Shown: piece after piece, positions 47,434 to 62,872 of the stretch | Position numbering within the stretch: position 1 is the stretch's first letter | Layout: each line of letters starts with the position of its first letter | From: Thermostichus lividus PCC 6715 | GTDB taxonomy: Bacteria; Cyanobacteriota; Cyanobacteriia; Thermosynechococcales; Thermosynechococcaceae | Direction: 5' to 3' | DNA length: 64,000 nt | Assembly (NCBI RefSeq): GCF_002754935.1 | Contig: NZ_CP018092.1 | Coordinates: 2,356,001 to 2,420,000 of the forward strand | Position numbers and translations under genes: made by a program | Notes under the pieces: model-generated | Told to the model about the DNA's origin: nothing | What the model saw: only the letters and a program-made list of their open reading frames with translations | The model's database searches: none

Positions 47434-47886
47434 GTGGAACGGACATTTCTAGCCATTAAGCCCGATGGTGTCCAGCGGGGTCTAGTGGGGACGATTATCC
47501 AACGATTTGAGCAAAAAGGCTACACATTAGTAGGTCTGAAAATGCTGCGGGTGAGCCGCGAACTGGCGGAGCAACACTACGGCGAGCACAAGGATAAACC
47601 TTTTTTTCCGGGGCTTGTGAACTTTATTACCTCAGGGCCTGTGGTAGCGATGGTATGGGAAGGTCGCGGTGTGATTGCCGCTGCCCGTAAGATGATTGGC
47701 GCGACAAATCCCCTGAATGCCGAGCCAGGCACCCTGCGTGGAGAGTTTGGTGTGGACGTGGGGCGCAATATCATCCATGGCTCTGATGCCGCCGAAACCG
47801 CAGAGCGCGAAATTAACCTCTGGTTCCAAACGCAAGAACTGGTTCCTTGGGAGCCATCCCTTACCTCTTGGGTGTACGAGATGTAG
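47434..47886 (+). CDS. ndk: nucleoside diphosphate kinase
   Basis: 150 residues from a GTG start. It balances nucleoside triphosphate pools via a phosphohistidine; the active-site His is in [16 protein letters not shown] (about residue 117). [15 protein letters not shown] at the N-terminus is diagnostic. The 3' end overlaps the convergent TerC-type gene by 26 bases. Confidence 0.97.
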
Positions 47887-48616
47887 GCTCCTGGGCTTGC
47901 GGGGTTATGGCTGGAGGGGGCTCGTCCGTCGCCCGTTTGGAAAACCCCCAAAGAAAGCACAGGGCAATGAGACTAATCATCAGCCAGTCAGGGGGAACAA
48001 GGGCATGGTTGACAACCCGCATAAGCAGCCGTAACCCCACCAAGGTGACGGTTAAGTAGCCAGCATCTTCAAGGCGAGGAAATTCCTTTAACCATCGAAT
48101 AAATAGCTCTGCCATAAACCGCAGCATAATGACACCGATGGTGCCCCCCAGCACCACCAGCCAGCGTTCATCCGACAGGGCGATCGCCGTTGTCACACTA
48201 TCTAAAGAAAACGCCAAATCTGCCAGCGCCAGCAGGGGTACCGCTTGCCAAAAGGAGCGAATCACCCGTTCGTGCTCGTGCTCTGGTTCGTTTGTGAAGA
48301 AAAAGTACTTGATCGCCAACCAGAGGAGGTAAAGTGCGCCCGCCAATTCAAACTGCCAGAACTGGAGTACCCAGCTTGCCGTAAAAATGAGGCCGATGCG
48401 AAAAATGTAAGAGATGGCCAGCCCCAAATTCAGGGCGTTGCGCTGCTCTTGCGGATCGTCAATGCCCTGTACTAATGCTGCCAGAGCAATCGCATTATCA
48501 GCGGAGAGAATTGCTTCTAACGCCAACAACACCACCAGCAACAGCAGCGTGTCCACCCCCCAATTGGGTGACAGTTCCAGCAACTCATCAATCATGTAGG
48601 CAGCATCTATCTCCAA
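47861..48616 (-). CDS. TerC/YkoY-family integral membrane protein
   Basis: 251 residues with about seven membrane spans. The acidic membrane motifs [13 protein letters not shown] (first part) and [17 protein letters not shown] (second) are the family signature; some members export manganese or protect against metal stress. In cyanobacteria and plastids TerC-like proteins are tied to thylakoid protein insertion and Mn homeostasis, but which role applies here is open. Confidence 0.87.
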
Positions 48617-48638
48617 AGCTCAACCATGGACATAATGT

Positions 48639-49964
48639 CTATGGTCGCATACCTGCTTCAGAAATCTGCCATTGCTGACCGGCAGAGTAGGTCGAAGCGT
48701 CTTGATAGATTTGGCTAATTGTTGCTGCTAAGCGCTCCATCCCCAGAGCAATTTCCTCATCACTGGCAGTGAGGCTAATGCGTAAGCATTCTTGCTTATG
48801 ATGCCATTCCTCGCTCAGACCGGGGAAGAAGGAGCTACCGGGAACCACAATCACCCCCGCTTGCTTCAAGTGCTGGTACAGTTCCCAATCCGTCATTGGC
48901 AAATTCCGCAGCCATAGCCAGGCAAAAATCGCCCCTTCACCGCGATGGAGGAACCATGGCAAATCTTGAGGTAAGGCGGTTCTTAGGGTTTCCTCTAAAA
49001 CAGCAAATTTACGTTGATAAAATGGCCGAATGACATTTAGTGAGACATCGGCAAGGGCACCATTGGCTATGGCCAAGGCAGCAATTGCCTGACCATAGCG
49101 GGAGGCATGAATACACGCATTGGTCTGAAACGCTTCTAGAACACTGAGAATGTCGCGATCGCCAATGGCAATCCCCACCCGCTCACCGGGTAAGCCCGCC
49201 TTAGACAAACTGAGACAGTGAACAATATTGCCACCAAACACAGGCACCAGTTCCGTAAAATTCAAGCTGGGATAGGGAGGGCCATAGGCGGCATCAATGA
49301 GCACGGGTACCCCGTAGGGCACCGCCAGATCTGCAATTTGCCGCACTTCCACATCGGTCAGAACATTGCCAGTGGGGTTACAGGGGCGCGAAAAAATTAC
49401 ACACCCAGTGGTGTCATCAATCTGTAACTGCTGAAAATCAGGACGGTACTTAAAGGCGTGCTCCGTTTCAAAAATCTCTAAGCGGGGACGGTAGGCCACT
49501 ACGGTATGGGGCATCAAACTCACGCCACCATAGCCGGTATATTCGGGACTCAAGGGCAGCACCACTTTCTTGGCTTGACCGTTCGCCGCAGCCCCTCCAA
49601 AGGCATTGGCAGCAAAGAAATAAATCGCTTGGCTGCCGGGGGTCACCAGCACATTCTGTTCACTGAGGTTCAAGCCATAGCGGCGGTTAAAGTCATCGAC
49701 AACGGCGGCAATGAGCGGCTCATAACCTTGGCTGGTACCGTAGCGACACACTACTTGGCCAAATTCTGGACTGGCCATGAGTTCTTGGGTGCACTCTCGC
49801 CACAGTTGCTCGACCTCCGGCAAAATCAGCGGGTTGCCTGCACTCAGGTTAATAAGATCCTGACCGCGATTCAGACGCAGGGTTTCGATAATATCCTTCA
49901 TGATTGCCCGTACTCCCGTCAGTTGGGACATTTGTTGGCCAATCTGGGAGAGTGCAGGATTCAT
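48639..49964 (-). CDS. valine-pyruvate-type aminotransferase (AvtA-like)
   Basis: 441 residues, fold type I PLP enzyme. The N-terminal MNPALSQIGQQMSQLTG and LINLSAGNPLILPEVE, the SRPCNPTGNVL motif, VLIDAAYGPPYP and the PLP lysine in HCLSLSKAGLPGERVG match the valine-pyruvate transaminase (AvtA) subgroup, which interconverts valine or alanine with 2-oxo acids. The C-terminal Arg is in ECLRISLTAS. Confidence 0.85.
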   Translation of the reverse strand: MNPALSQIGQQMSQLTGVRAIMKDIIETLRLNRGQDLINLSAGNPLILPEVEQLWRECTQELMASPEFGQVVCRYGTSQGYEPLIAAVVDDFNRRYGLNLSEQNVLVTPGSQAIYFFAANAFGGAAANGQAKKVVLPLSPEYTGYGGVSLMPHTVVAYRPRLEIFETEHAFKYRPDFQQLQIDDTTGCVIFSRPCNPTGNVLTDVEVRQIADLAVPYGVPVLIDAAYGPPYPSLNFTELVPVFGGNIVHCLSLSKAGLPGERVGIAIGDRDILSVLEAFQTNACIHASRYGQAIAALAIANGALADVSLNVIRPFYQRKFAVLEETLRTALPQDLPWFLHRGEGAIFAWLWLRNLPMTDWELYQHLKQAGVIVVPGSSFFPGLSEEWHHKQECLRISLTASDEEIALGMERLAATISQIYQDASTYSAGQQWQISEAGMRP

Positions 49965-50048
49965 AAGCGCAGGGGAATCATGACAGTAACGTTAGAATAA
50001 CACTTTGGCTTTGATGGTGTCTCAGACATGCGTTGGTGCAAATGTCCC

Positions 50049-50917
50049 CTAAGCTTCACCAGCGTGGTAAGAGCTTCGCACCAGTGGGCCTGAGCGTACA
50101 TGGCTAAACCCCAGCTCCTTGGCTATCTCACCTAAGCGCTCAAACTCTTCAGGGTGCCAGTATTTGACAACAGGAAGATGGTTAAGGGATGGGGGCAGGT
50201 ACTGCCCCAGGGTGAGGCGATCGCACCCCACTGCCCGTAAATCCTTCAGCGTGGCCACAATCTCTGCTTCAGACTCGCCGAGACCAAGCATCAGCCCCGA
50301 TTTGGTGGGAATCTGTGGGTTCAACGCCTTGACGGTTGCCAGTACCCGCAAGGAACTCTCATAGGTGGCGCCGCGCCGAACGGGTTTTTGCAGCCGTGCC
50401 ACGGTTTCCAGATTATGGTTATAGCAGGCGGGGTCTAGGGCAACAATTTGGGCAATGCAGTCGCGCTGGCTCAGCCGCCCGTGATCCATGCGAAAGTCAG
50501 GGGTGAGGACTTCAATGTGCGCTTGGGGTCGCTGTTGGCGAATGGCTTGGATGGTGGCCACAAACTGCCCGGCTCCCTGGTCAGGTAAGTCATCCCGCGC
50601 CACACTGGTTAAGACTACGTAGTCTAACCCCAGCGTAGCGACTGCCGCGGCTACCTTCGCCGGTTCCTGGGGATCCACCGCTAGGGGGGCGTGTCCCTTA
50701 TCCACTTGGCAAAAGGCACAGGCGCGGGTACAGGTTGACCCCAATAGTAAAAACGTTGCGGTTTTTTGGGCGTAGCACTCCCCCGATTGGGGCAGCGCCC
50801 CTCCTCACAGATGGTGTGGATGCCCTGCCGTCGTATTAACTGCTGTACGGTGGCGATATCGCTGGCTTTGCCGAGGGGTTTGCGTAACCAAGCTGGCAGG
50901 GGCTGAAGATGGGTCAT
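50049..50917 (-). CDS. lipA: lipoyl synthase, single-base frameshift
   Basis: Radical SAM enzyme that inserts two sulfurs into octanoyl groups to make lipoate. The radical-SAM motif is CTRACAFCQ; the auxiliary-cluster cysteines are in [13 protein letters not shown]. The frame breaks in the C5 run at 50780-50784 (G on the coding strand). One more base yields [18 protein letters not shown] and a 289-residue protein from the ATG at 50917. The C-terminal RSSYHAGE contains the Ser that ligates the auxiliary cluster. Cyanobacteria often have a second lipA. Confidence 0.9.
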
Positions 50918-51058
50918 AATGCCTTTGAATGATAGCAATAGAGCAGAGGACGTATAAATACAAAACTTAATGAATTATTGAGTCTATTTATTAAGTAACT
51001 GTAAATTATCAGTGGGGCACCCCCTAGGGGGCGATCGCTTCTGTGGCAGGATCAATAG

Positions 51059-52056
<998 letters not shown>

Positions 52057-52057
<1 letters not shown>

Positions 52058-52545
52058 TGCGGGCTGGCTTGGGACTAGGCATTGCAGCGGGACTGGTGAT
52101 CTCACCCATAACGGTGGCGATCGCCAACCCTCCCCCTCAGGCTGTGGTTACACAGTTCTATCAATGGCTGGTGCAACATCAAGACCAGAGTCGCCAACAA
52201 CTGCGGCAGCAACAACACCACTTCACACCGGAGTTGTATCAGCAGCTAACGGCAGCGTTTCGCAAACAACCCCAAGATGGGGCATGGCTAGACTTTGACC
52301 CCTTTTCCTACACTCAGGTGAGCACTCTGGGGATGCAAGTACGCAAGGTGACCCCCTCCACCACAGATCCGCGCAGCGCTGACGTGGATATTGATGTTAT
52401 TGCTGGGCTACGGGGGCGGCGGGGAACCCCCGTGCCCATTAAGGTGATCATGAAAAAGACGGGCGATCGCTGGCAGATTGACAATTTGGTTTATATCAGC
52501 ACTTGGGATAATCTGCGCTGTATTTTGCGGGAGATCAACCGCTAG
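52057..52545 (+). CDS. exported DUF3828-like protein
   Basis: 162 residues. A signal peptide (residues 1-24, ending IANPP) precedes a small domain with VVTQFYQWLVQHQ, FTPELYQQLTAAF and DFDPFSYTQ, which resembles DUF3828/YbjP-type periplasmic proteins of NTF2-like fold. That family name is recalled, not searched. It is translationally coupled to por by one-base overlap and its stop is shared with the convergent CHAT gene. Confidence 0.7.
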
Positions 52546-55220
52546 GGGAGCGATCGCCACTCGCCACTGGTTACAAACGCTGCCCAAAAGTAGGGAATTT
52601 GCCTGCTACTGTCTTGCATTAAGCTGAGCTGGGCTTGTCGCAATGCCTCACTGCGGCTCTTTCCGGCTGCTAAGTTCTGGTAAAAGGCTGTCATTAACTG
52701 TTGGGTTGTGGTGTCGTCCACCTTCCACAGGGAACTAACTTGAGTGCGTGCTCCGGCAAGGGTAAAGGCACGCCGCAACCCATAGACCCCATCGCCATTA
52801 AAAATGTCGCCCCGCCCCGTATCACAGGCAGACATCACCACGAGTTCTGTGCCCTCTAGGTTAAGACCGGTCACTTCTAGAGCCGTGAGCACGCCATCAT
52901 CACTACCGCTTTGGCGTTGATTGAAGCCAGCCATGGCCAAGCCAGAGCGCAACAGCGGATTCTCACCCCCAAAGGGTGCGTAGGCATTCAAGCCCCGTGT
53001 GTTCTGTAAACCCTGAGAACTGACAGCAGGACTCTCTAGAAAAAAGCCGTGGGTGGCCAAATGCAAAATGCGGGGACGATTCGCTTGCTTGATGGCCGTC
53101 TCTGTGGCATTGCTGCCGGTGAGCACTTGCGCTTGGGGCAATAGGTTGCTGAGGGTTTTGACTTCGGTCGCAGTTCCCGGTAGCTCGTTAAAGGTGAGGC
53201 TGCGCAGATCCAAGGAGCGGCTGCTACTGCTCTGCTGTGGGCTAGGGCGGCTCTGGCCAAAGGCAGGGTTCCCCACCACTAAGGGGGGGCTGGGCGATCG
53301 CCCGCGCTGTTGTAGCCGCAGCAAATCCCGACCCGAGGTGAGGAGAGTCACAGTGTAGGATTCCAGCAAGTAGCGATCTTGGCGATTGACTAGGGCTTCA
53401 AAGGGGAGAGTATTTAACTGACCATCAGGGGCGATGAGGAGGTGGGTACTGCCGCCAATGAATGGTTCCAGCGGTGCTAGCAAGGTCTCGTAGGCCGCCT
53501 TGAGAGGGGGCTTGACAATGTTGGGAGTCAAGCGCGGATCCGCCACCCGCGATCGCGCGGCATTGACGACCCTATCCACCTCAGCAACGGTGCCTAAATC
53601 TCGCCACTGCGGTGCACCGGTGGCTTTAAGGCCATAAACGGCATAGCGAGGTGCATCCCAGCGATTGGTTTTGGGATTGTAGGGCACGTACTGGATAAAT
53701 TCCAGCAAAACCGCATCGGCAGGAATGGCTTGCTGAACGGCCGCTAGGGTGACAGGGGTCACTTCGACACGGAAATTAGCATTTTGGCTGGTGAGTTGGG
53801 CTTCAAGCTGGCTGGCACGCTGCTCCAGTTGGCTAATTTGACTGCTGGGCGCTGGGCGATCGCGCATAAAGGTGAGGCTGGCAATCTGGGTGCGCAGCCG
53901 GATGAGTTCCTCCAGTTGCTGTTGGCCAGCAGCATCCAGTTGATGGCGCAAGCGGCTGGTGGTTTGTGCCAGCACATCCAGTAACCGCCCCTTGCGACGC
54001 AAAATAGTGGTTAAGGCCAGCGTTGCCGCTGTTGGATTCTGGGGATTGCCTTGCAGGTGGAAGGAGATGGCGGTATTCGTTGAGTCTTGGAAGGTGCTGA
54101 GATAGTTGCGTTTATAGGCTTCGGAACCCACCACTAAATTACGAGCAAGGTTAGTTTCTTCAATCTCAAGGGAGCGCGTCAGGGTGGCTAGAGCCTCCGG
54201 TATGTTGCCTTGTGCCCAGTAAGCTTTGGCCAGATTCGCCAAACTCAAGGCCAAATAAGGATGCTCATTCCCTAGGGTGCGCTGCCGCAGAGCAATGCTG
54301 CGTTGGTACAGCGGCAGTGCGGCGCTATAGTTATTTTGGCTACGGTAGAGTTCTGCCAAATTGTTGAGACTGGTGGCTACATCGGGATGATCTTGGCCAA
54401 GGACACGTTCGCGCAGACCCAGACTCCGCTGATACAGGGGTAAAGCCGCACCATAGTTGCCCTGTGCCCGGTAAAGTTCAGCCAAGTTATTGAGCAGCGT
54501 GGCCACAAGGGGATGATCTGCGCCAAGGGTGGACTCTACCACGGCAATGCTGCGCTGATACAGGGGTAGAGCCGCCGCCAGATTGCCTTGGAGATGGTAC
54601 ATCACTGCTAAGTTATGCAGGCTAACCCCCACATCGGGGTGATTGGCACCCAGTGCCTGCTCGCGAATGCTGAGGCTGCGCTGATAGAGGGGAAGCGCCT
54701 CCCCATAATTGCCCTGATCACTAAAAAGATTCGCTAGGTTATTCAGACTGGTGGCCACATCGGGATGGCGCGCCCCCAGTGCCTGTTCCTGAATGCTGAG
54801 GCTGCGTTGGTACAGCGGCACAGCAGCGCTAAAGTTGCCCAATTCTTTATAGAGGACGGCCAAATTGTTTAGGGTGGCGGCTACGGTCGGATGCGTCGGC
54901 CCTAACACCCGCTCAGCAATCGCCACTAATTCCTGAGACGGGGCGATCGCAGCGGTATAGTTTCCCTGCCGCTGTAATTGTTCAATTGAGTTCGTTAGGG
55001 CAATAACATTCCCACTATCGGCACCAAAGGAGGTTTGGCGAATCACATCCAACTCACTCACCGCCGTCGTGTAGCGCTGCTGCAGTGAGTCAAGGCGTTG
55101 CATAATGTCCCGTAACTGCTGGGACTCATTCTGCGCCATCACCGACCGTGCTAGCCCCCCCACCCCCAGTAGCACCAGAAGAAGCAGTAAGTGACCCCGG
55201 AATTGTAAAAAGGCAGCCAT
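52542..55220 (-). CDS. TPR-CHAT domain protein with N-terminal signal/anchor
   Basis: 892 residues. A hydrophobic segment (about 8-28, ending VMAQ) is followed by a coiled stretch, seven kinesin-light-chain-type TPR units of 42 residues (about 82-355), a helical linker (about 370-490) and a C-terminal CHAT caspase-like domain. The catalytic His is in ILHLATHGFF and the Cys in LVVMSACDTGRGD (about residue 790). CHAT proteases cleave specific partner proteins; in some systems they are switched on by a sensor. Here the N-terminus suggests an exported or membrane-bound protein. No partner with an obvious sensor role sits beside it. Confidence 0.85.
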   Translation of the reverse strand: MAAFLQFRGHLLLLLVLLGVGGLARSVMAQNESQQLRDIMQRLDSLQQRYTTAVSELDVIRQTSFGADSGNVIALTNSIEQLQRQGNYTAAIAPSQELVAIAERVLGPTHPTVAATLNNLAVLYKELGNFSAAVPLYQRSLSIQEQALGARHPDVATSLNNLANLFSDQGNYGEALPLYQRSLSIREQALGANHPDVGVSLHNLAVMYHLQGNLAAALPLYQRSIAVVESTLGADHPLVATLLNNLAELYRAQGNYGAALPLYQRSLGLRERVLGQDHPDVATSLNNLAELYRSQNNYSAALPLYQRSIALRQRTLGNEHPYLALSLANLAKAYWAQGNIPEALATLTRSLEIEETNLARNLVVGSEAYKRNYLSTFQDSTNTAISFHLQGNPQNPTAATLALTTILRRKGRLLDVLAQTTSRLRHQLDAAGQQQLEELIRLRTQIASLTFMRDRPAPSSQISQLEQRASQLEAQLTSQNANFRVEVTPVTLAAVQQAIPADAVLLEFIQYVPYNPKTNRWDAPRYAVYGLKATGAPQWRDLGTVAEVDRVVNAARSRVADPRLTPNIVKPPLKAAYETLLAPLEPFIGGSTHLLIAPDGQLNTLPFEALVNRQDRYLLESYTVTLLTSGRDLLRLQQRGRSPSPPLVVGNPAFGQSRPSPQQSSSSRSLDLRSLTFNELPGTATEVKTLSNLLPQAQVLTGSNATETAIKQANRPRILHLATHGFFLESPAVSSQGLQNTRGLNAYAPFGGENPLLRSGLAMAGFNQRQSGSDDGVLTALEVTGLNLEGTELVVMSACDTGRGDIFNGDGVYGLRRAFTLAGARTQVSSLWKVDDTTTQQLMTAFYQNLAAGKSRSEALRQAQLSLMQDSSRQIPYFWAAFVTSGEWRSLP
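54155..54975 (-). repeat. seven in-frame TPR units, about 126 bases each
   Basis: Inside the CHAT gene, units such as GNYGEALPLYQRSLSIRE and GNYGAALPLYQRSLGLRE recur every 42 residues with HPDVATSLNNLA between. The DNA units are similar but not identical. Confidence 0.85.
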
Positions 55221-55405
55221 AGGACAACACCAGTGCGCCTACTTCTATCCTACGCAGCAGGCTTTGATCTTGGTGGGGCATGGGCCACCCTAAGAGAGCC
55301 AACGACCCCACAGGATGTGGATGTCCGCGACACCCTAAACACCAGCATCCCGCTGCTTAAGCTAAAATTTTGGGGATAACTGGGCGTGAAGGGGATATTA
55401 ACGTC

Positions 55406-56350
55406 ATGGAATTCCGATTACTGGCAATGGGGTTAACCGTTGGGTTGCTGGCAGCAGGGATGGGCAGCAGCTATGCTGAGCCTCCCTTAGCAGTTTCTGA
55501 AGACAGTTCCCCTGCACCAACCCTCATCAATCCTGTCGAAGCGGTGGACAGTGACCCCCTTGTGTTTTCAACGGAACCGGTGGACCCGCCGGCGGGCAGT
55601 GAACCCCTCGAAAATTTGCTGCCTGCTCGCCCCTTGCCCGTTGTGCTGCAAGAGCGTTCCACCGGCTGCCAAGCAACGCTCCATGGCGCTGAGGAACTTC
55701 CCGCCTCTCTATGTGCCCCAGCGATCGCCCCTGCTACCCCTGCCACAATTGCCAGTTACCCGACCCATCACTCCTATCCGCCGATCCGTAGCGTATCACA
55801 CGCATCACAACCGAGGGCAACAACCACTTACGTCCGCCAACCCTTTCCAGGAGCCAATCCGCTGCGTTGGCTGAATTTTAATAATCGGCAAATGCTGTTT
55901 CCGCTGCCCTTTGCTGCCCCCATTACCTCTTCGTTTGGCTGGCGTGTGCATCCTATCTTTGGCGATCGCCGGTTTCACTCTGGCACTGATTTAGCTGCCC
56001 CTGAAGGAACACCCGTCCTTGCAGTATTTGATGGCCGAGTCGTTGAATCCAACCGGTTAGGGGGCTACGGCCTCACGGTCATTCTGCGACACCCGCCGGA
56101 TCAGCATGAAACCCTGTACGCGCATCTGTCGCAGCTATTTGTCAATCCGGGGCAGTGGGTTAAGCAGGGGGAGGTCGTTGGCTTGGTGGGTAGTACGGGA
56201 AACTCCACCGGTCCACACCTCCATTTTGAAATTCATGAAATGACCGCCCAAGGGTTGATTCCTGTTGCTCCTGAAGCTCGCCTAGCGTTGGCATTACAGC
56301 ATCTGCGCGAGGCGATCGCCCACGCTCGTAGCCAGCAAAATCCCAGCTAG
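55406..56350 (+). CDS. M23-family zinc metallopeptidase (LytM-type)
   Basis: 314 residues from the ATG at 55406. A signal peptide (LLAMGLTVGLLAAGMGSSYA) and a Pro/Ser-rich linker (about 25-170) lead to the M23 domain. Zinc ligands are in RFHSGTDLAAPEG (HxxxD) and STGPHLHFEI (HxH). Such enzymes cut peptidoglycan cross-links or act as activators of amidases at the cell wall. The upstream in-frame extension lacks a start with a ribosome-binding site. Confidence 0.9.
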   Translation: MEFRLLAMGLTVGLLAAGMGSSYAEPPLAVSEDSSPAPTLINPVEAVDSDPLVFSTEPVDPPAGSEPLENLLPARPLPVVLQERSTGCQATLHGAEELPASLCAPAIAPATPATIASYPTHHSYPPIRSVSHASQPRATTTYVRQPFPGANPLRWLNFNNRQMLFPLPFAAPITSSFGWRVHPIFGDRRFHSGTDLAAPEGTPVLAVFDGRVVESNRLGGYGLTVILRHPPDQHETLYAHLSQLFVNPGQWVKQGEVVGLVGSTGNSTGPHLHFEIHEMTAQGLIPVAPEARLALALQHLREAIAHARSQQNPS

Positions 56351-56490
56351 TGTAGCCAATTTAATCGTTCATCTGTGCCTGTGCCACTACTGTCACAGTT
56401 CAGTAGAGCGATCAGCTAAAATCTGTCACGATCAAGGTATCAGCGCTATCACACCACGCTTCGCTACAATTCGCTGTCGAAAGCTCTGGT

Positions 56491-56949
56491 ATGACCGTTG
56501 ACCATTCATTTACCTCGTCTCAGGTAGGTCCAGCAATGTTTTCAGTGCGGTTGTTTGGTCGGCAATTGTCTGTTTTGGTTGGTGTTGTCACGCTTTTTGC
56601 AGGGGGGGCGATCGCCCAACCCGTCAGCTTAATTGCTCGGCAAAACCAGCCTACCCAGTTAGCAGACGGTATCTATCTTTTTGGTGAATCTCCCCAGCCC
56701 CACCAGACGGGGCATGGCTATATAGTCTTTGAAGTCTCGAATCAACAAGTTCGTGGTGCATTTTACCTACCCAACTCTTCCTTTGATTGTTTTGTAGGAA
56801 CTGTTGGTGATCAGCAACTTGATGTCACTGTAGAGGCCACCTACGATGACGAAACCTATCCAGCCCACGTTGATCTGTTTAGTTTTTACAGCCTTGATCA
56901 CGTCAGTTCTGGCGATCGCGCCATCCTATCTGCGTGTCACGCAAACTGA
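56491..56949 (+). CDS. exported conserved hypothetical protein
   Basis: 152 residues (or 137 from the ATG at 56536, which gives a cleaner signal peptide FGRQLSVLVGVVTLFAGGAIAQ). The mature part has a compact beta domain: HGYIVFEVSNQQVRGAFYLP followed by SSFDCFVG. I recall similar exported proteins in other cyanobacteria but no function. It is convergent with psbC, with the psbC terminator between them. Confidence 0.68.
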   Translation: MTVDHSFTSSQVGPAMFSVRLFGRQLSVLVGVVTLFAGGAIAQPVSLIARQNQPTQLADGIYLFGESPQPHQTGHGYIVFEVSNQQVRGAFYLPNSSFDCFVGTVGDQQLDVTVEATYDDETYPAHVDLFSFYSLDHVSSGDRAILSACHAN

Positions 56950-56977
56950 TCGCTCGGATTTGTGCTCTTAAACGGTC

Positions 56978-57010
56978 AAAAATAAAAAGACTCCCATCTA
57001 AATGGGAGCC
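56978..57010 (-). terminator. intrinsic terminator of psbD-psbC
   Basis: On the minus strand a 9-base stem GGCTCCCAT/ATGGGAGTC (one G-U pair) with a 4-base loop is followed by TTTTTATTTTT. It begins 33 bases after the psbC stop. Confidence 0.9.
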
Positions 57011-57042
57011 TTAGACATGGTTGTGATATTTAGCCTTAGCGA

Positions 57043-58428
57043 CTAGTCAAGGCTTGGCATCGTCAGCACGGGTTCAGTTTCGCGATCAATGCCTTTCTCG
57101 AACCCTGCCGCAGCAGCGCGGGCACGTCCTGCATGCCACAGATGACCAACTAAGAAGAAGAAGGCCAGTACAAAGTGAGATGTGGCCAACCACGAACGGG
57201 GTGACACAAAGTTCACCGAGTTAATTTCGGTGGCTACCCCTCCCACAGAGTTCAAGGAACCCAAGGGTGCATGGGTCATGTACTCAGCAGCACGGCGAGC
57301 TTGCCATGGCTGAATGTCATTTTTGATCTTGTTCAGGTCAAGACCATTCGGCCCACGCAGCGGCTCTAGCCACGGGCCACGGAAATCCCAGAAGCGCATG
57401 GTTTCGCCACCAAAGATGATTTCACCTGTGGGCGATCGCATCAGGTATTTACCTAAACCAGTTGGGCCTTGAGCCGAACCAACGTTTGCCCCTAGCTTTT
57501 GGTCACGGATCAGAAACGTCATCGCTTGGGCTTGCGAGGCTTCAGGGCCTGTGGGGCCATAGAACTCGCTGGGATACACCGTGTTGTTGAACCAAACAAA
57601 GCAGGTGGCAATAAAGCCCATCATCGAGAGGGCACCCAAGCTATAGGAGAGGTAAGCCTCACCGGACCAGATAAAGGCACGGCGTGCCCAACCAAAGGGC
57701 TTGGTGAGAATGTGCCAGATACCACCAAAAATACAGATCAAACCAATCCAAATGTGACCACCGACCACATCCTCAAGGTTATTGACGCTGACGATCCAGC
57801 CATCACCGCCAAAGGGAGACTTGAGCAGATAGCCAAAAATCACCGTGGGATCAAGGGTGGGGTTGGTAATCACCCGCACATCGCCACCACCGGGTGCCCA
57901 AGTGTCGTACAGCCCCCCAAAGAACATGGCCTTCGCCACCAGTAGGAGGGCGCCAATGCCAAGGACGATCAGGTGAAATCCTAGGATCGTCGTCATTTTG
58001 TTCTTGTCTTTCCAGTCATACCCAAAGAAGGAGGAGTACTCCTCTAAGGTTTCGGGACCACGAATGGCGTGATAAACACCACCCAAGCCCAAGACAGCGG
58101 AGGAAATTAGGTGAACCACCCCCACCACAAAGAAGGGGAAGGTATCGACGACTTCACCGCCGGGGCCTACGCCCCAGCCGAGGGTCGCAATGTGGGGCAG
58201 TAGGATTAAGCCTTGCTCATACATCGGCTTTTCAGGGATGAAATGAGCCGTTTCAAACAAGGTCATAGCACCTGCCCAGAACACCATGAGGCCAGCATGG
58301 GCAACGTGGGCACCCAGAAGCTTACCAGACAGGTTAATCAGGCGGGCATTCCCAGCCCACCACGCGAACCCTGAGGATTCTTGGTCGCGGTTGGTGGCAA
58401 AAATAGAATTACTAGAGAGCGTTACCAC
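57043..58428 (-). CDS. psbC: photosystem II CP43 chlorophyll apoprotein
   Basis: 461 residues from a GTG start that overlaps the end of psbD by 17 bases, the arrangement known across cyanobacteria and plastids. CP43 is the second inner antenna and also supplies a ligand to the oxygen-evolving Mn4CaO5 cluster (the Glu and Arg in the [14 protein letters not shown] loop, about residues 340-353). Six membrane spans and the C-terminal [19 protein letters not shown] are intact. Confidence 0.99.
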
Positions 58429-59470
58429 GGGGGAGTACCTCTTCGGGGAAGACTAGGTTTTCATGGGGTTGGTCTTGCGGCGCCATCCACGCCCGAATCC
58501 CTTCGTTCAACAGAATGTTCTTGGTGTAGAACGTCTCAAACTCAGGGTCTTCAGCCGCACGAATCTCTTGCGAAATGAAGTCGTAGGAGCGCAGGTTCAC
58601 CGCTAACCCTACCACCCCAATCGCACTCATCCACAGACCTGTCACTGGCACAAACAACATAAAGAAGTGTAGCCAGCGCTTGTTCGAGAAGGCAATCCCA
58701 AAAATTTGGCTCCAGAACCGGTTCGCCGTCACCATCGAGTAGGTCTCTTCCGACTGGGTGGGGGTAAAGGCACGGAAGGTACTGGCCCCTTCCCCATCCT
58801 GGAACAGGGTATTTTCAACCGTCGCACCGTGAATGGCACACAGTAGGGCACCCCCCAGCACCCCGGCAACCCCCATCATGTGGAAGGGGTTCAAGGTCCA
58901 GTTGTGGAACCCTTGGAAGAATAGCAAGAACCGGAAAATCGCCGCTACCCCAAAACTAGGCGCAAAGAACCAGCCCGACTGCCCCAGTGGGTAAATCAAA
59001 AAGACACTCACAAATACGGCAATCGGCGCACTAAAGGCAATGGCGTTGTAGGGGCGAATGCCAACCAAGCGGGCAATTTCAAACTGCCGCAGCATAAAGC
59101 CAATGAGGCCAAAGGCACCATGGAGGGCAATAAACGTCCACAGGCCTCCCAGTTGACACCAGCGGGTAAAGTCCCCTTGGGCTTCGGGTCCCCACAGCAG
59201 CAGCAGGGAGTGTCCCATACTGTTGGCCGGGGTCGAGACTGCCACGGTCAGGAAGTTACAGCCTTCCAAGTAGCTGGAGGCTAAGCCGTGGGTGTACCAC
59301 GAGGTTACAAAGGTGGTGCCGGTCAGCCAACCACCCAGGGCAAGGTAGGCACAGGGAAACAGCAGGATGCCTGACCAGCCCACAAACACAAATCTGTCGC
59401 GCTTGAGCCAGTCGTCGAGAATGTCGAACCATCCTCGCTCCGCTGGCGCACGTCCGATTGCTATTGTCAT
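58412..59470 (-). CDS. psbD: photosystem II D2 protein
   Basis: 352 residues, full length. D2 pairs with D1 to hold P680, the active pheophytins and plastoquinone [18 protein letters not shown] at the N-terminus, five membrane spans, the redox-active Tyr D (in the RPYNAIAFS region) and the non-haem-iron histidines (IHGATVEN and FNHK-type SNKRWLHFF segments) are present. Only one psbD is in the window; cyanobacteria usually have a second copy without psbC. Confidence 0.99.
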
Positions 59471-59930
59471 GGAATTAAATCCTCTTGCAGATATTTAGAT
59501 GCCAGATTTAGAAGATGACAGTTGCTGGTATTGCTATTGTCACCCCCAAAGGGAGCGATCGCCCCAGCATCCTGTTAATTTGGCTTATAAATTAAAATCC
59601 AACCATTAACCTTGCCACAACATTATTAGGCGCTTTTACCTATTACGTATGGCAAGGGCTAGCGGTAGGCTTAGGTTCCCATCAGTGTTTACTGCGGGAG
59701 AACTATATTAACGTGATAGCGGAATTCTTACGAAATATCAAGGTGAATCGGGGGAGCTTTTTCAGCGTTCTCATAATTGATCTCTCTTGGGAAACCCCTT
59801 GATGCACTAGGCGTCTTGCTTTGGAGGATTGCTCTGTGCTTTAGCTTATCTTTAAGTTTTGTAAAGAAACCCTATCGGCACGTGGCTTACGGCGGCTGGT
59901 GTCTTATGGCAGACTAGGAAAGCACAGGCA
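59471..59930. other. divergent promoter region psbD / uspA
   Basis: About 460 bases without a gene. It should hold the psbD promoter and leader on the minus strand (AGAGGATTT before the ATG) and the uspA promoter on the plus strand. The minus-strand leader is A/T-rich around 59590-59640 with a TAATAAT that could serve as a -10 element. I see no tRNA or hairpin of note. Confidence 0.5.
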
Positions 59931-59945
59931 GTGAGTCAACGGGTA

Positions 59946-60377
59946 ATGTTCAAAACGATTCTGGTGGCACTTGATACCAGTGATTTAGCACAGCAGGTGA
60001 TGAAAGCGGTTGATCAATTGAACTTAGACCCTGATGCCCACGTTATTTTAAGTCATGTGATTTCCCCTACGGAGTCTGGCTTTGGGGTGAGTGCCGATCG
60101 CCCCTCACCGAATCCGCAGATCGGCACCTATCGCAGTATTGAGCAACACTTAAAGCAGTTCCAGGGCAGGCTTCCGTGTGACTCAGAGATCGAAATTGTG
60201 ACCGGCGAGCCAGTGGAGGAAATTTTACGACTGGCCAATATCTACAGTGCTGACCTGATTGTTTTAGGCAGTCGGGGCTTAACGGGAGTGCGGCGAGTGG
60301 TGCAAGGCTCCGTGAGTAGTGCGGTTGTGGCGGATGCTGCCTGCTCGGTGTTGGTGGTCAAGTCAGCAGATGTTTAG
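59946..60377 (+). CDS. universal stress protein (UspA family)
   Basis: 143 residues from the ATG at 59946 (MFKTILVALDTSD). The nucleotide-binding signature GSRGLTGVRRVVQGSVSSAVV (the G-2x-G-9x-G(S/T) pattern of ATP-binding Usp proteins) is near the C-terminus. Members bind ATP or other nucleotides and act in stress signalling. The P-type ATPase gene begins 3 bases after its stop, so the two are co-transcribed and may be functionally tied. Confidence 0.87.
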   Translation: MFKTILVALDTSDLAQQVMKAVDQLNLDPDAHVILSHVISPTESGFGVSADRPSPNPQIGTYRSIEQHLKQFQGRLPCDSEIEIVTGEPVEEILRLANIYSADLIVLGSRGLTGVRRVVQGSVSSAVVADAACSVLVVKSADV

Positions 60378-60380
60378 ACC

Positions 60381-62872
60381 ATGGACGACCTAACTGGGTT
60401 AACCGCTGCTGAGGTGGCTAAGCGGCAAGCACAGGGTCAGAGCAATCGACAGGTGAATGAGAGTCATCGTACCTATCGCGAGATTTTCTTGGAAAATCTT
60501 TTCACCTTTATTAATGGGGTGTTTGCCTTTATTAGTGTGATCTTACTGGGGCTAGGACGGCCAGGGGATGTCATCGCTATTGTTTTGGTGGTGTTCTTGA
60601 ATGCCATTATCAGTATCGTCCAAGAAATTCGTGCCAAACGCCAACTGGATGCCATTAGCGTGTTGACTCGACCCCGGGTGAAGGTGCGGCGCGATCGCCA
60701 CAATCAAGTCATTGACCCAGCGGAGGTGGTTGTGGGGGATATTGTGCTGCTGGAGCCAGGCGATCAGGTCGTGGCGGACGGCACCGTGGTAGGCAGCGGC
60801 AGCATCCACGTTGATGAATCGTTACTGACGGGCGAGTCAGACTTAATTCCGAAGCAAGCTGGCGATCGCCTCTACTCCGGCAGCTTTTGCGTGCGGGGGG
60901 CAGCAGCCTATGTGGCTGAGCAGGTGGGCAGTGCCAGTACGGCGCAACAGCTTACCGCGGCTGCGAAAACCCATCACCGTAAGCTCACCCCTCTACAACA
61001 GGAAATCAACCTAATTATTCGGGTGATTCTGGCGCTCGCTATTTTTCTGTGGTTATTAGTGCTGCTATCTCTGTTAGTACGCTTAACCACCCTACCCATG
61101 AGTGTGCAAACCGCAGCGGTGGTCGCGGGCTTAGTCCCGGTTGGCTTGTACCTAACCATTACCCTCACCTATGCGTTGGGGGCCATTCGCATTTCCCGCG
61201 CAGATGTGCTAGTACAGCAAGTGAATGCCATTGAGTCCCTCAGCAGTATTGATATTCTTTGTCTGGATAAAACAGGTACCCTAACCGCCAATACCCTTGA
61301 GTTACACAGCATTCACCTGTTAGCCCATGCACCGGCCAATACCCAGCAGCAGCTAGCAACCCTAGCCGCCAGTGTGAGTGCCCCCAACCGTACCGTGACG
61401 GCCCTGTGTGAGGCTTTGGGGGGAACCCCTGCCCCTTACGCTGCGAAATTCCCTTTTCTTCAGCTTATAAGTGGAGTGCCGCGGCATGGGATGAGAGCGG
61501 CGCTTATATTTTAGGCGCGCCGGATGTGCTGTTAGAGGGTGCTCAGAGTTATCCCGAAATAGAGGCGTACCTGCACGAAGGCAGAGAGCAGGGGCTACGG
61601 GTTTTGTTATTCGCCCACAGCCCAGCACTCCCGCAATGGGATGCCCAAAACGACGCACCATTGCTGCCTGCCAACCTCAGCCCCTTAGCTGTGATTTGGG
61701 TGGGCGATCGCCTGCGGCCTCAGTCTAAGGAGGTGCTAGAGCGGTTTCAGGCGGCGGGGATTCGCATCAAAATTATTTCCGGCGATCATGCGGATACCGT
61801 TGTTGCTCTCGGCAAACAGGTGGGGCTAGACCCTGAGGCGATCGCGGTCTCCGGCCAAGAATTAGCGCGACTGGATGAGCCAAGCTTTGATCAGATGGCG
61901 GTTAACGCCACGGTTTTTGGGCGCATTACCCCTAATCAAAAAGCGCAACTGGTCAGCCGTTTGCGCGCACAGGGACACCAAGTCGCCATGATTGGCGATG
62001 GGGTCAACGATGTCCTCTCTCTGAAGCAGGCCAACGTGGGTATCGCCATGGAAAGCGGCAGCGCCATTACCCGCAATGTGGCGGATATTGTGCTACTGAA
62101 GGATTCCTTTGCCGCCCTGCCGGAAGCCTTTCGCGAAGGTCAGCGCATTTACAACGGCATTCAGGATGTCACCAAGCTGTTTTTAGTGCGGGTGCTGAGT
62201 TTTAGTTTACTGTCCCTAGTCACCGTCATGGCGGGACGCGCCTTTCCGCTGCTAATTAAGCACAACACCCTGTTAACCCTGTGGGGTGTGGGGTTACCCA
62301 CCTTAGCGGTCGCCTTCTGGGCCGTGCCGGGGCCGCGTCCCTACCGTTCCCTGATTCGTTCGCTCTTGCACTTTGTTGTCCCTGCTACCCTCAGCTTGGC
62401 TTTATTGGCAATTTTCGTGTACCTCGGTGTATTGGCACGAGAGCTAACTCCCCTCATGGCACTGTTCCAGAGTGGGTTTGGCTCAGCCTTATTAAACCGT
62501 CAAGAGGTCATTGGCGATATTCAGCACAGCATCGCGATCGCCCGCACAGCATTGGTGACCACCCTCCTCTTGGCATCCCTTTGCTTGGTCTTGTTCCTGA
62601 AACCTCCCCATCCTGTATGGGTGGGTGGCGCCCCCTTAGTGGGGAACTGGCGCTATGTTGGTGTTGTGGTGGCTCTACTGGCACTATTTATCGGTATGAA
62701 TGTCTCCCCCCGCCTGCGATCGCTGATGGAGCTGGAGCCGATGTCGTGGCAGTTATGGGCCGGAACAGTCCTGATTGTCATCCTATGGGTGCTGATGTTG
62801 CGCACCTTCTGGCGCTACCGGCTCTTAGATCGCTTTTTAGGGGTGAGCCTAGATGGCTGCTACCCAACCTAG
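60381..62872 (+). CDS. cation-transporting P-type ATPase (CtpE-like), frameshifted
   Basis: 830 residues after correction. The actuator domain has LLTGESDL; the phosphorylation site is the Asp in CLDKTGTLT; the hinge is GDGVNDVLSLKQANVGIAM. About ten membrane spans are visible and there is no N-terminal metal-binding domain. The architecture recalls CtpE-type calcium pumps; in the fourth span the usual PEGL reads PVGL. The frame is lost near 61446-61450: one more A in the AAA gives AKIPFSSAYKWSAAAWDE and continuity to ILGAPDVLLEG. Ion specificity is not determined by the sequence. Confidence 0.85.

Follow-up and report, generated by a model that had tools for sequence, protein, structure and literature searches.

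A TPR-CHAT gene of Thermostichus lividus PCC 6715: a predicted exported protease without conserved gene neighbours, from a widespread cyanobacterial class

Introduction

Do a gene for a caspase-like protease with an exported-looking N-terminus and the genes beside it form an undescribed system of the cyanobacterial envelope? The question is raised by a locus of Thermostichus lividus PCC 6715, a cyanobacterium with a genome of 2.66 Mb in one contig, from which we analysed a stretch of 64,000 nucleotides (the window; G000:C1:2356001-2420000, G000 being the window genome). The gene (52542..55220 of the window, reverse strand) is an open reading frame (ORF) with an ATG start that stands alone and encodes 892 residues, with tetratricopeptide repeats (TPRs) followed by a CHAT domain. 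A first-pass annotation had singled it out as a candidate for an unusual and undescribed system. This claim was not supported: the gene belongs to a large known family and has no conserved neighbours. It is an ordinary member of a widespread and functionally uncharacterised class, and the class is the interesting part. As for the protein itself, we think it rather probable that it is a stand-alone cysteine endopeptidase, exported by Sec to the periplasm or thylakoid lumen, with a TPR superhelix that selects its partner or substrate.

The TPR-CHAT protein and its catalytic pair

The CHAT domain occupies residues 571-887 (52560..53510, reverse strand) and was matched by Pfam PF12770 over model positions 2-289 of 289 (E value 1.4e-95; 320.6 bits, the cut-off being 24). 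This full-domain profile match, together with a His/Cys pair, places the protein in the CHAT family. The caspase-like residues reported in the first pass are indeed present, as His724 within LHLATHGFF (codon 53049..53051) and Cys799 within VMSACDTG (codon 52824..52826, both on the reverse strand), and by analogy with the CHAT/caspase family they would form the catalytic dyad. Both columns are invariant in 46/46 aligned proteins (the window protein included, chosen from the 112 at hand), every one of which contains CHAT and TPR_12. A motif search of 111 cyanobacterial CHAT frames detected each of the two motifs, His and Cys, in 108 and the two together in 105; the six misses retain the residue concerned, two as HMATHG, one as HIAAHG, two as SGC, and one (L137, which keeps C799) by alignment. 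We regard the active site as well supported, and the dyad and the purifying selection described below suggest that the protein is proteolytic.

A linker of approximately 200 residues separates the CHAT domain from a TPR superhelix of the kinesin-light-chain type (residues 65-364; 54129..55028, reverse strand), which was recognised from Pfam TPR_12 and TPR_10, PDB matches and a structural model. The Pfam TPR models match approximately residues 110-355, with six TPR_12 stretches, and the 60 best PDB matches shown are TPR proteins, kinesin light chain among them. The AlphaFold model, built on a 3-sequence alignment, had a mean predicted local distance difference test score (pLDDT) of 49.3 overall, with values of about 70-90 only at approximately residues 90-330. 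It presented seven helix pairs at 65-364, which together with the Pfam matches agrees with the seven TPRs counted in the first pass.

Evidence for export

The N-terminus of the protein, MAAFLQFRGHLLLLLVLLGVGGLARSVMA followed by QNE, resembles a classical Sec-type signal both by eye and by a simple home-made rule. The predicted signal peptide covers residues 1-29 (55134..55220, reverse strand), and the rule places the cut after residue 29, between SVMA and QNE. Divergence among orthologues points to the same position. In ten intact orthologues (window protein included), residues 1-29 had a mean identity of 45% and a minimum of 14%, and the N-terminal helix, TPR, linker and CHAT parts had mean identities of 85-88%, so that the step in identity (0.45 before, 0.85-0.88 after) coincides with the predicted cleavage site. 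Residue -1 of this site is A in 9/10 orthologues and G in one, the home-made rule passes 9/10 including the window protein, and the catalytic cysteine is the sole cysteine of the mature protein in 10/10. The identity step, the signal rule and the single mature cysteine all bear out the exported look that the first-pass annotation had seen in this N-terminus.

The same features were found in relatives. We sampled 80 loci among the matches listed, 30 from the top and 50 at random from the rest; loci analysed earlier and some short or broken frames were omitted, and the sample leans to high-scoring relatives. Signal-like N-termini occurred in 69 of 79 cyanobacterial CHAT frames (L139, whose frame runs off its contig, was excluded from this count) versus 131 of 306 neighbouring frames (Fisher p 2e-13), and 5 of these 131 came from the 26 window frames. 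With the first start codon only, the counts were 57/79 and 83/306, and 169/1580 for shuffles. Several of the ten misses bear signals by eye (L121, L135, L145). An envelope location had been called unusual for a CHAT protease; these counts, and the CHATs fused to two-partner-secretion (TPS) domains described below, indicate that it is not. Experimental knowledge of CHAT proteases comes from cytoplasmic immunity (Craspase and gasdermin systems) and from HetF. The earlier description of CHATs as cytoplasmic fits the known experimentally studied ones but not the cyanobacterial family as a whole.

Cysteine is scarce throughout this family. Exactly one cysteine follows residue 70 in 70 of the 111 family frames (which include L139 and also L161, where no start codon was found), and the median after residue 70 was 1.2 per 1000 residues in CHAT frames versus 11.4 in the 306 neighbouring frames. 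In the last 330 residues, exactly one cysteine is present in 104/111 cyanobacterial CHAT frames, and this cysteine lies in an [ST]AC motif in 102/104 and in SGC in 2/104. Eight CHATs taken as signal-less have 2-6 cysteines in the same region. They were hand-picked: plasmids of Streptomyces, Emticicia, Azospirillum and Methylorubrum supplied seven, and the window genome one, L061, with a partial CHAT match; the signal-lessness of L197, which is cut at its N-terminus, is assumed, and the Methylorubrum protein, which comes after a transposase, is possibly truncated. A one-cysteine protein would suit an oxidising compartment, in which spare thiols would cause misfolding or be selected against. The window protein presents both features by which we delimit an exported cyanobacterial TPR-CHAT class, a Sec-type signal and a single cysteine, the latter being a criterion proposed here rather than an established one. 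Taken together, the identity step, the signal-like N-termini, the single cysteine and the TPS-fused CHATs found elsewhere make predicted export of the TPR-CHAT protein well supported.

Several observations weigh against this interpretation. The signal rule is loose, as 131/306 controls pass when the best of six starts is taken; the orthologue of the sister genus (G012) fails it, the M23 neighbour of the gene fails it as well though it looks exported by eye, and in 6/9 passing orthologues the best-scoring cut precedes the QNE site. The set used to compare cysteine content is small (8) and mostly from other phyla, and the relatives are not independent of each other. L168 and L169, which have no clear signal, still have a single cysteine, so scarcity is an imperfect marker; it may also result partly from TPR composition, though the CHAT domain alone shows it. 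Exported-looking proteobacterial CHATs in the plasmid set (12 analysed of 14 taken from 60 listed of 222 matching records; L203 and L207, unannotated, were left out) are not all single-cysteine. The CHAT domain was poorly modelled by AlphaFold, so the active-site geometry of His724 and Cys799 is only presumed, and our search of the literature found no protease assay, localisation or substrate for this family.

The proteobacterial CHATs deserve a word of their own. L199-L202 and L205, from plasmids of Proteobacteria, have signal- or lipoprotein-like N-termini by eye and a varying cysteine content. The CHATs of Pseudosulfitobacter, Azospirillum oryzae, Sphingobium, Variovorax and Novosphingobium, with such N-termini and 1 to 12 cysteines after residue 70, were kept out of the comparison set. 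The single cysteine is no rule for exported CHATs in other phyla.

Orthologues and selection

Among the ten other genomes of the genus, eight have an intact orthologue with 79-87% identity, and the sister genus has one with 81%. The orthologue is broken by a stop codon in G009, a draft assembly, and G006 has no full orthologue. In G006, a C-terminal TPR-CHAT remnant of 72 residues (L103:8250-8465(-)) adjoins DUF58, at the site of the whole gene in most of the genus, and represents a natural deletion. A second paralogue (57-59% identity; 61% in G012) was found in 8/11 genus genomes and in G012, with a stop codon in one genome; it was not found in the window genome at the threshold used. When genome contigs were scanned with the CHAT region, only 2 loci were obtained. 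In a midpoint-rooted tree of CHAT domains, from which 13/117 proteins were omitted as a home-made profile gave no or a short CHAT match, the group of the window protein sits with a TPR-CHAT paralogue group, and we draw nothing more from it.

Nonsynonymous and synonymous divergence (dN/dS) was calculated by the Nei-Gojobori method. For the pair of the window genome and its closest relative (G000/G010) it was 0.090/1.81 in the TPRs and 0.092/1.12 in CHAT, and dN was far below dS in both parts alike wherever dS could be computed, with dS near saturation in distant pairs. The gene is under purifying selection in the genus yet dispensable in some lineages, as follows from the remnant in one relative and the broken copy in the draft of another. 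In G010, the TPR-CHAT gene (L038:10756-14111(-)) is convergent with an apparently broken gene for a haemagglutinin-type exoprotein with DUF5649 repeats.

Gene neighbourhood

The gene is flanked by a DUF3828 gene (52057..52545, forward strand; Pfam DUF3828, E value 2.8e-9), whose product has a signal-like N-terminus by eye, and by an M23 peptidase gene (Pfam M23; 55370..56350, forward strand), divergent from it at approximately 150 bp. Both are neighbours and not part of the gene's unit. The first-pass annotation had coupled the DUF3828 gene with CHAT. However, the two genes are convergent, with 3' ends that overlap by 4 bp (CTAG), and the DUF3828 start overlaps the stop of the gene for protochlorophyllide reductase (LPOR) at TAATG (52055-52059), so any coupling of DUF3828 would be to LPOR and not to CHAT. 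DUF3828 was found in only 3/14 genomes, adjoining LPOR in all three and beside CHAT only in the window genome. M23 orthologues exist in 11/11 genus genomes and, among the CHAT orthologues examined, were seen beside the gene only here. These results correct the idea that M23 and DUF3828 are partners of CHAT.

Twelve window neighbours spanning 47434-61514 were used as queries (the lipA query was weak, as its reading crosses a frame break), and none turned up at the ten orthologous loci, within approximately 8 kb on each side or, on one side of the G009 draft contig, less. An operon or system with the window neighbours, including that proposed with DUF3828 and M23, was rejected on this basis. Two outcomes had been named beforehand as speaking against such a system: the absence of conserved neighbours was found, and the loss of the catalytic pair was not, the dyad being kept. 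An aminotransferase match (23-25%) occurred only in loci of the second paralogue and in none of the ten orthologous loci. In 8/10 of the latter, recA - x - DUF58 stands on one side, and the other side has a second DUF58 in 7/10, MoxR in 6/10 and glgP in 7/10 (DUF58 and MoxR were named by Pfam, the first DUF58 below the cut-off, and recA and glgP by eye); the remaining two loci have other settings again. From the lack of conserved neighbours in the ten loci, the TPR-CHAT protein acts alone or with partners encoded elsewhere. A scan of 54900-55700 for promoters and terminators gave one promoter-like and zero terminator-like sites, near the shuffle means of 0.5 and 0.8.

The window also contains LPOR, as well as psbC and psbD, recognised by eye. 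LPOR and DUF3828 (51089-52545), overlapping at TAATG, are kept together in three genus genomes, and DUF3828 may have an LPOR-linked role. At 50049-50938 (reverse strand), a gene that we take to be lipoyl-synthase-like is divided between two ORFs that overlap and lie in different frames (50681-50938 and 50049-50744), and at 60381-62872 (forward strand) another, presumably P-type ATPase-like from its motifs, is split in two ORFs, also in different frames (60381-61514 and 61526-62872). A strong, full-length Rfam match to IsrR (160.9 bits) at 57828-58014 (forward strand) lies antisense within psbC and not isiA, and may reflect isiA/psbC homology.

Mechanism and alternatives

The mechanism that we favour, a stand-alone protease outside the cytoplasm, builds on what was computed: the domain order, the intact dyad, the signal-peptide signature, the single cysteine, purifying selection and the absence of conserved neighbours. 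The protein would be exported by Sec and its signal peptide removed. The TPR superhelix would then bind a partner or substrate polypeptide, perhaps through a peptide motif or a folded partner, and present it to the CHAT domain, where the His724/Cys799 pair would cut it. A single gene would suffice for this, with no fixed operon partner. A TPR protein of the periplasm, PratA, reportedly takes part in the biogenesis of photosystem II. The variety of Craspase cleavage sites may serve as a model for substrates being cut according to how they dock and not according to their sequence: three Craspase orthologues cut different residue pairs, and the authors liken this to gasdermin cleavage by certain caspases (PMC11106740; this and the other papers given by PMC number are cited from excerpts of their text). 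As to the compartment, a caspase p20-domain protein appears in the lumen-enriched table of Synechococcus PCC 7002 (PMC7880944), and more hydrophobic H-regions have been linked with the thylakoid lumen (PMC12341915). By eye, the H-regions of the orthologues are too variable to decide between periplasm and lumen.

Perhaps the protein is instead an envelope effector of defence or cell death, whose TPRs would sense phage or damage and whose CHAT would activate a killing substrate. The studied TPR-CHATs do so in the cytoplasm, as described for Craspase in the excerpts, and the copy number of the family is high and variable, with copies lost or broken. Nevertheless, the PADLOC match was only to a generic TPR model (E value 3e-10), no partner is conserved across the genus, and the TPR part changes at no higher rate than CHAT (mean pairwise identities of 0.87 and 0.88), leaving no arms-race signature between orthologues; we regard this role as unlikely. 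We give a slightly smaller chance to an enzyme that is secreted or located at the surface and has other cells or the matrix as its target, in the manner of the TPS-CHAT exoproteins. CHAT stands behind a TPS domain in all the TPS-like proteins tested, a TPS partner is encoded in the window genome, and TPR motifs occur in cyanobacterial exoproteomes (PMC11424642), but Pfam shows no TPS domain in the window TPR-CHAT protein, and a Sec signal alone predicts periplasm or lumen.

Partnership with the MoxR-DUF58 locus that adjoins the orthologue in most of the genus is suggested by the frequency of DUF58 and MoxR in the orthologous loci, and also by Nostoc, where expression of a CHAT gene is correlated with MoxR and VWA genes (PMC12691664). 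On the other hand, DUF58 and the MoxR-DUF58 pair sit elsewhere without CHAT in G000, G010 and G012, G006 retains the locus with only the CHAT remnant, and the CHAT gene is convergent to its DUF58 neighbour. The known MoxR-type proteins are moreover cytoplasmic, and we consider the partnership improbable. As for an envelope module with the M23 peptidase and the DUF3828 protein, the three genes are adjacent only in the window genome, and by eye each of the three proteins has an exported-looking N-terminus (that of M23 fails the signal rule). Such a module is scarcely credible, being already refuted as a conserved one by the 10/10 orthologous loci without these neighbours, by the pairing of DUF3828 with LPOR and by M23 orthologues located elsewhere. 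The stand-alone exported endopeptidase is thus the reading that we retain.

The wider cyanobacterial CHAT class

CHAT proteins were found in 105/117 cyanobacterial genomes, many of which have more than 10 copies and some up to at least 18. Five long TPR-CHAT relatives lie within 33 kb in one genome (L062 and L063; G050:C1 1388869-1421401) and look like duplicated copies. A second architecture is found in the window genome itself, where a TPS exoprotein of 1751 residues with one cysteine after residue 70 (L059:9062-14314(-); G000:C1 ~2248061-2253313) ends in CHAT. Seven further proteins combine the TPS domain with CHAT (L145, L149, L170, L175, L180, L186 and L189, the last with TPRs too), giving 8/8 proteins tested, all of which had been chosen as their N-termini looked TPS-like. 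There is one TPS partner of the ShlB type (TpsB) in the window genome. The same genome encodes a short CHAT protein of 441 residues (L060:8235-9557(-)), whose N-terminus looks signal-like by eye. It also has a CHAT frame that follows haemagglutinin-like repeats and lacks a clear start (L058:8762-10438(-)), perhaps the remnant of a gene.

Little was found in print on this class. One clause mentions 'Secreted CHAT domain-containing proteins' in islands of marine Synechococcus (PMC7522525), and for a phage-resistant Nostoc carrying mutations in two genes, it was suggested that the one in the CHAT gene all2170 caused the loss of nitrogen fixation (PMC10811720). In our search, whose coverage excluded most subscription journals, no paper dealt with what the exported kind does, and none joins the CHAT domain with two-partner secretion or a CHAT protease with the periplasm, which is not proof of absence in print.

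Tentatively, and with a little more doubt than confidence, we propose that cyanobacteria have a class of extracytoplasmic caspase-fold proteases that leave the cytoplasm by two routes, the TPR-CHATs through Sec to the periplasm or lumen and the TPS-CHATs to the surface, most of them with a protease domain stripped of all cysteines other than the nucleophile. Most cyanobacteria would then have a proteolysis network outside the cytoplasm in which the TPR superhelix serves as an address tag that can be exchanged. The N-termini and the scarcity of cysteine suggest that most CHATs of cyanobacteria are exported; if so, one of their more abundant protease families, with no known substrate, acts in the periplasm, in the lumen or at the surface. 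The window orthologue is a convenient entry point, being present in one copy, intact, and equipped with a single mature cysteine suited to activity-based thiol probes.

Comparison with known systems

The TPR-CHAT protein resembles Csx29 of the type III-E CRISPR effector Craspase in combining TPR and CHAT, in its caspase-type dyad and in a likely protein-directed cleavage. Craspase, as described in the excerpts, is an RNA-guided complex with Cas7-11/gRAMP that cuts Csx30, whereas the window protein is predicted to be exported. Csx29 was not among the 60 best PDB matches shown, neither gRAMP/Cas7-11 nor Csx30 was among the scanned neighbours (LPOR, DUF3828, M23 and a family-less protein, to which the search for Cas7-11 was confined), and no clustered direct repeats of at least 23 bases, as in a CRISPR-like array, were found in window 34000-64000. 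In another CHAT family, the CHAT gene is adjacent to a bacterial gasdermin gene. A Pfam scan of the four neighbouring proteins, one of them family-less, gave no gasdermin match, and the genome was not searched for gasdermin.

Orthocaspases and metacaspases share the caspase fold, are found in cyanobacteria, have N-terminal helices and include some possibly exported members (PMC3501461; PMC7880944), but they belong to the C14 p20 family and the window protein to CHAT. HetF of Nostoc/Anabaena is likewise a cyanobacterial CHAT and TPR protein. The excerpts of PMC8406250 describe it as a divisome protein with CHAT, transmembrane (TM) and TPR regions, associated with the envelope at midcell and at cell-cell junctions. 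HetF has the order CHAT (residues 1-555), TM, TPR, whereas the window protein has signal, TPR, CHAT, and identity with HetF was rejected on this opposite order. The closest known group is the cyanobacterial family of CHAT domain-containing tetratricopeptide repeat proteins (PF12770 with TPR_12), which has the same signal-like N-terminus, the TPRs, a C-terminal CHAT, the His/Cys pair and scarce cysteine. Nothing essential differs between the two: the window protein is a member of this family, in an orthologue group of its genus with one copy in the sister genus.

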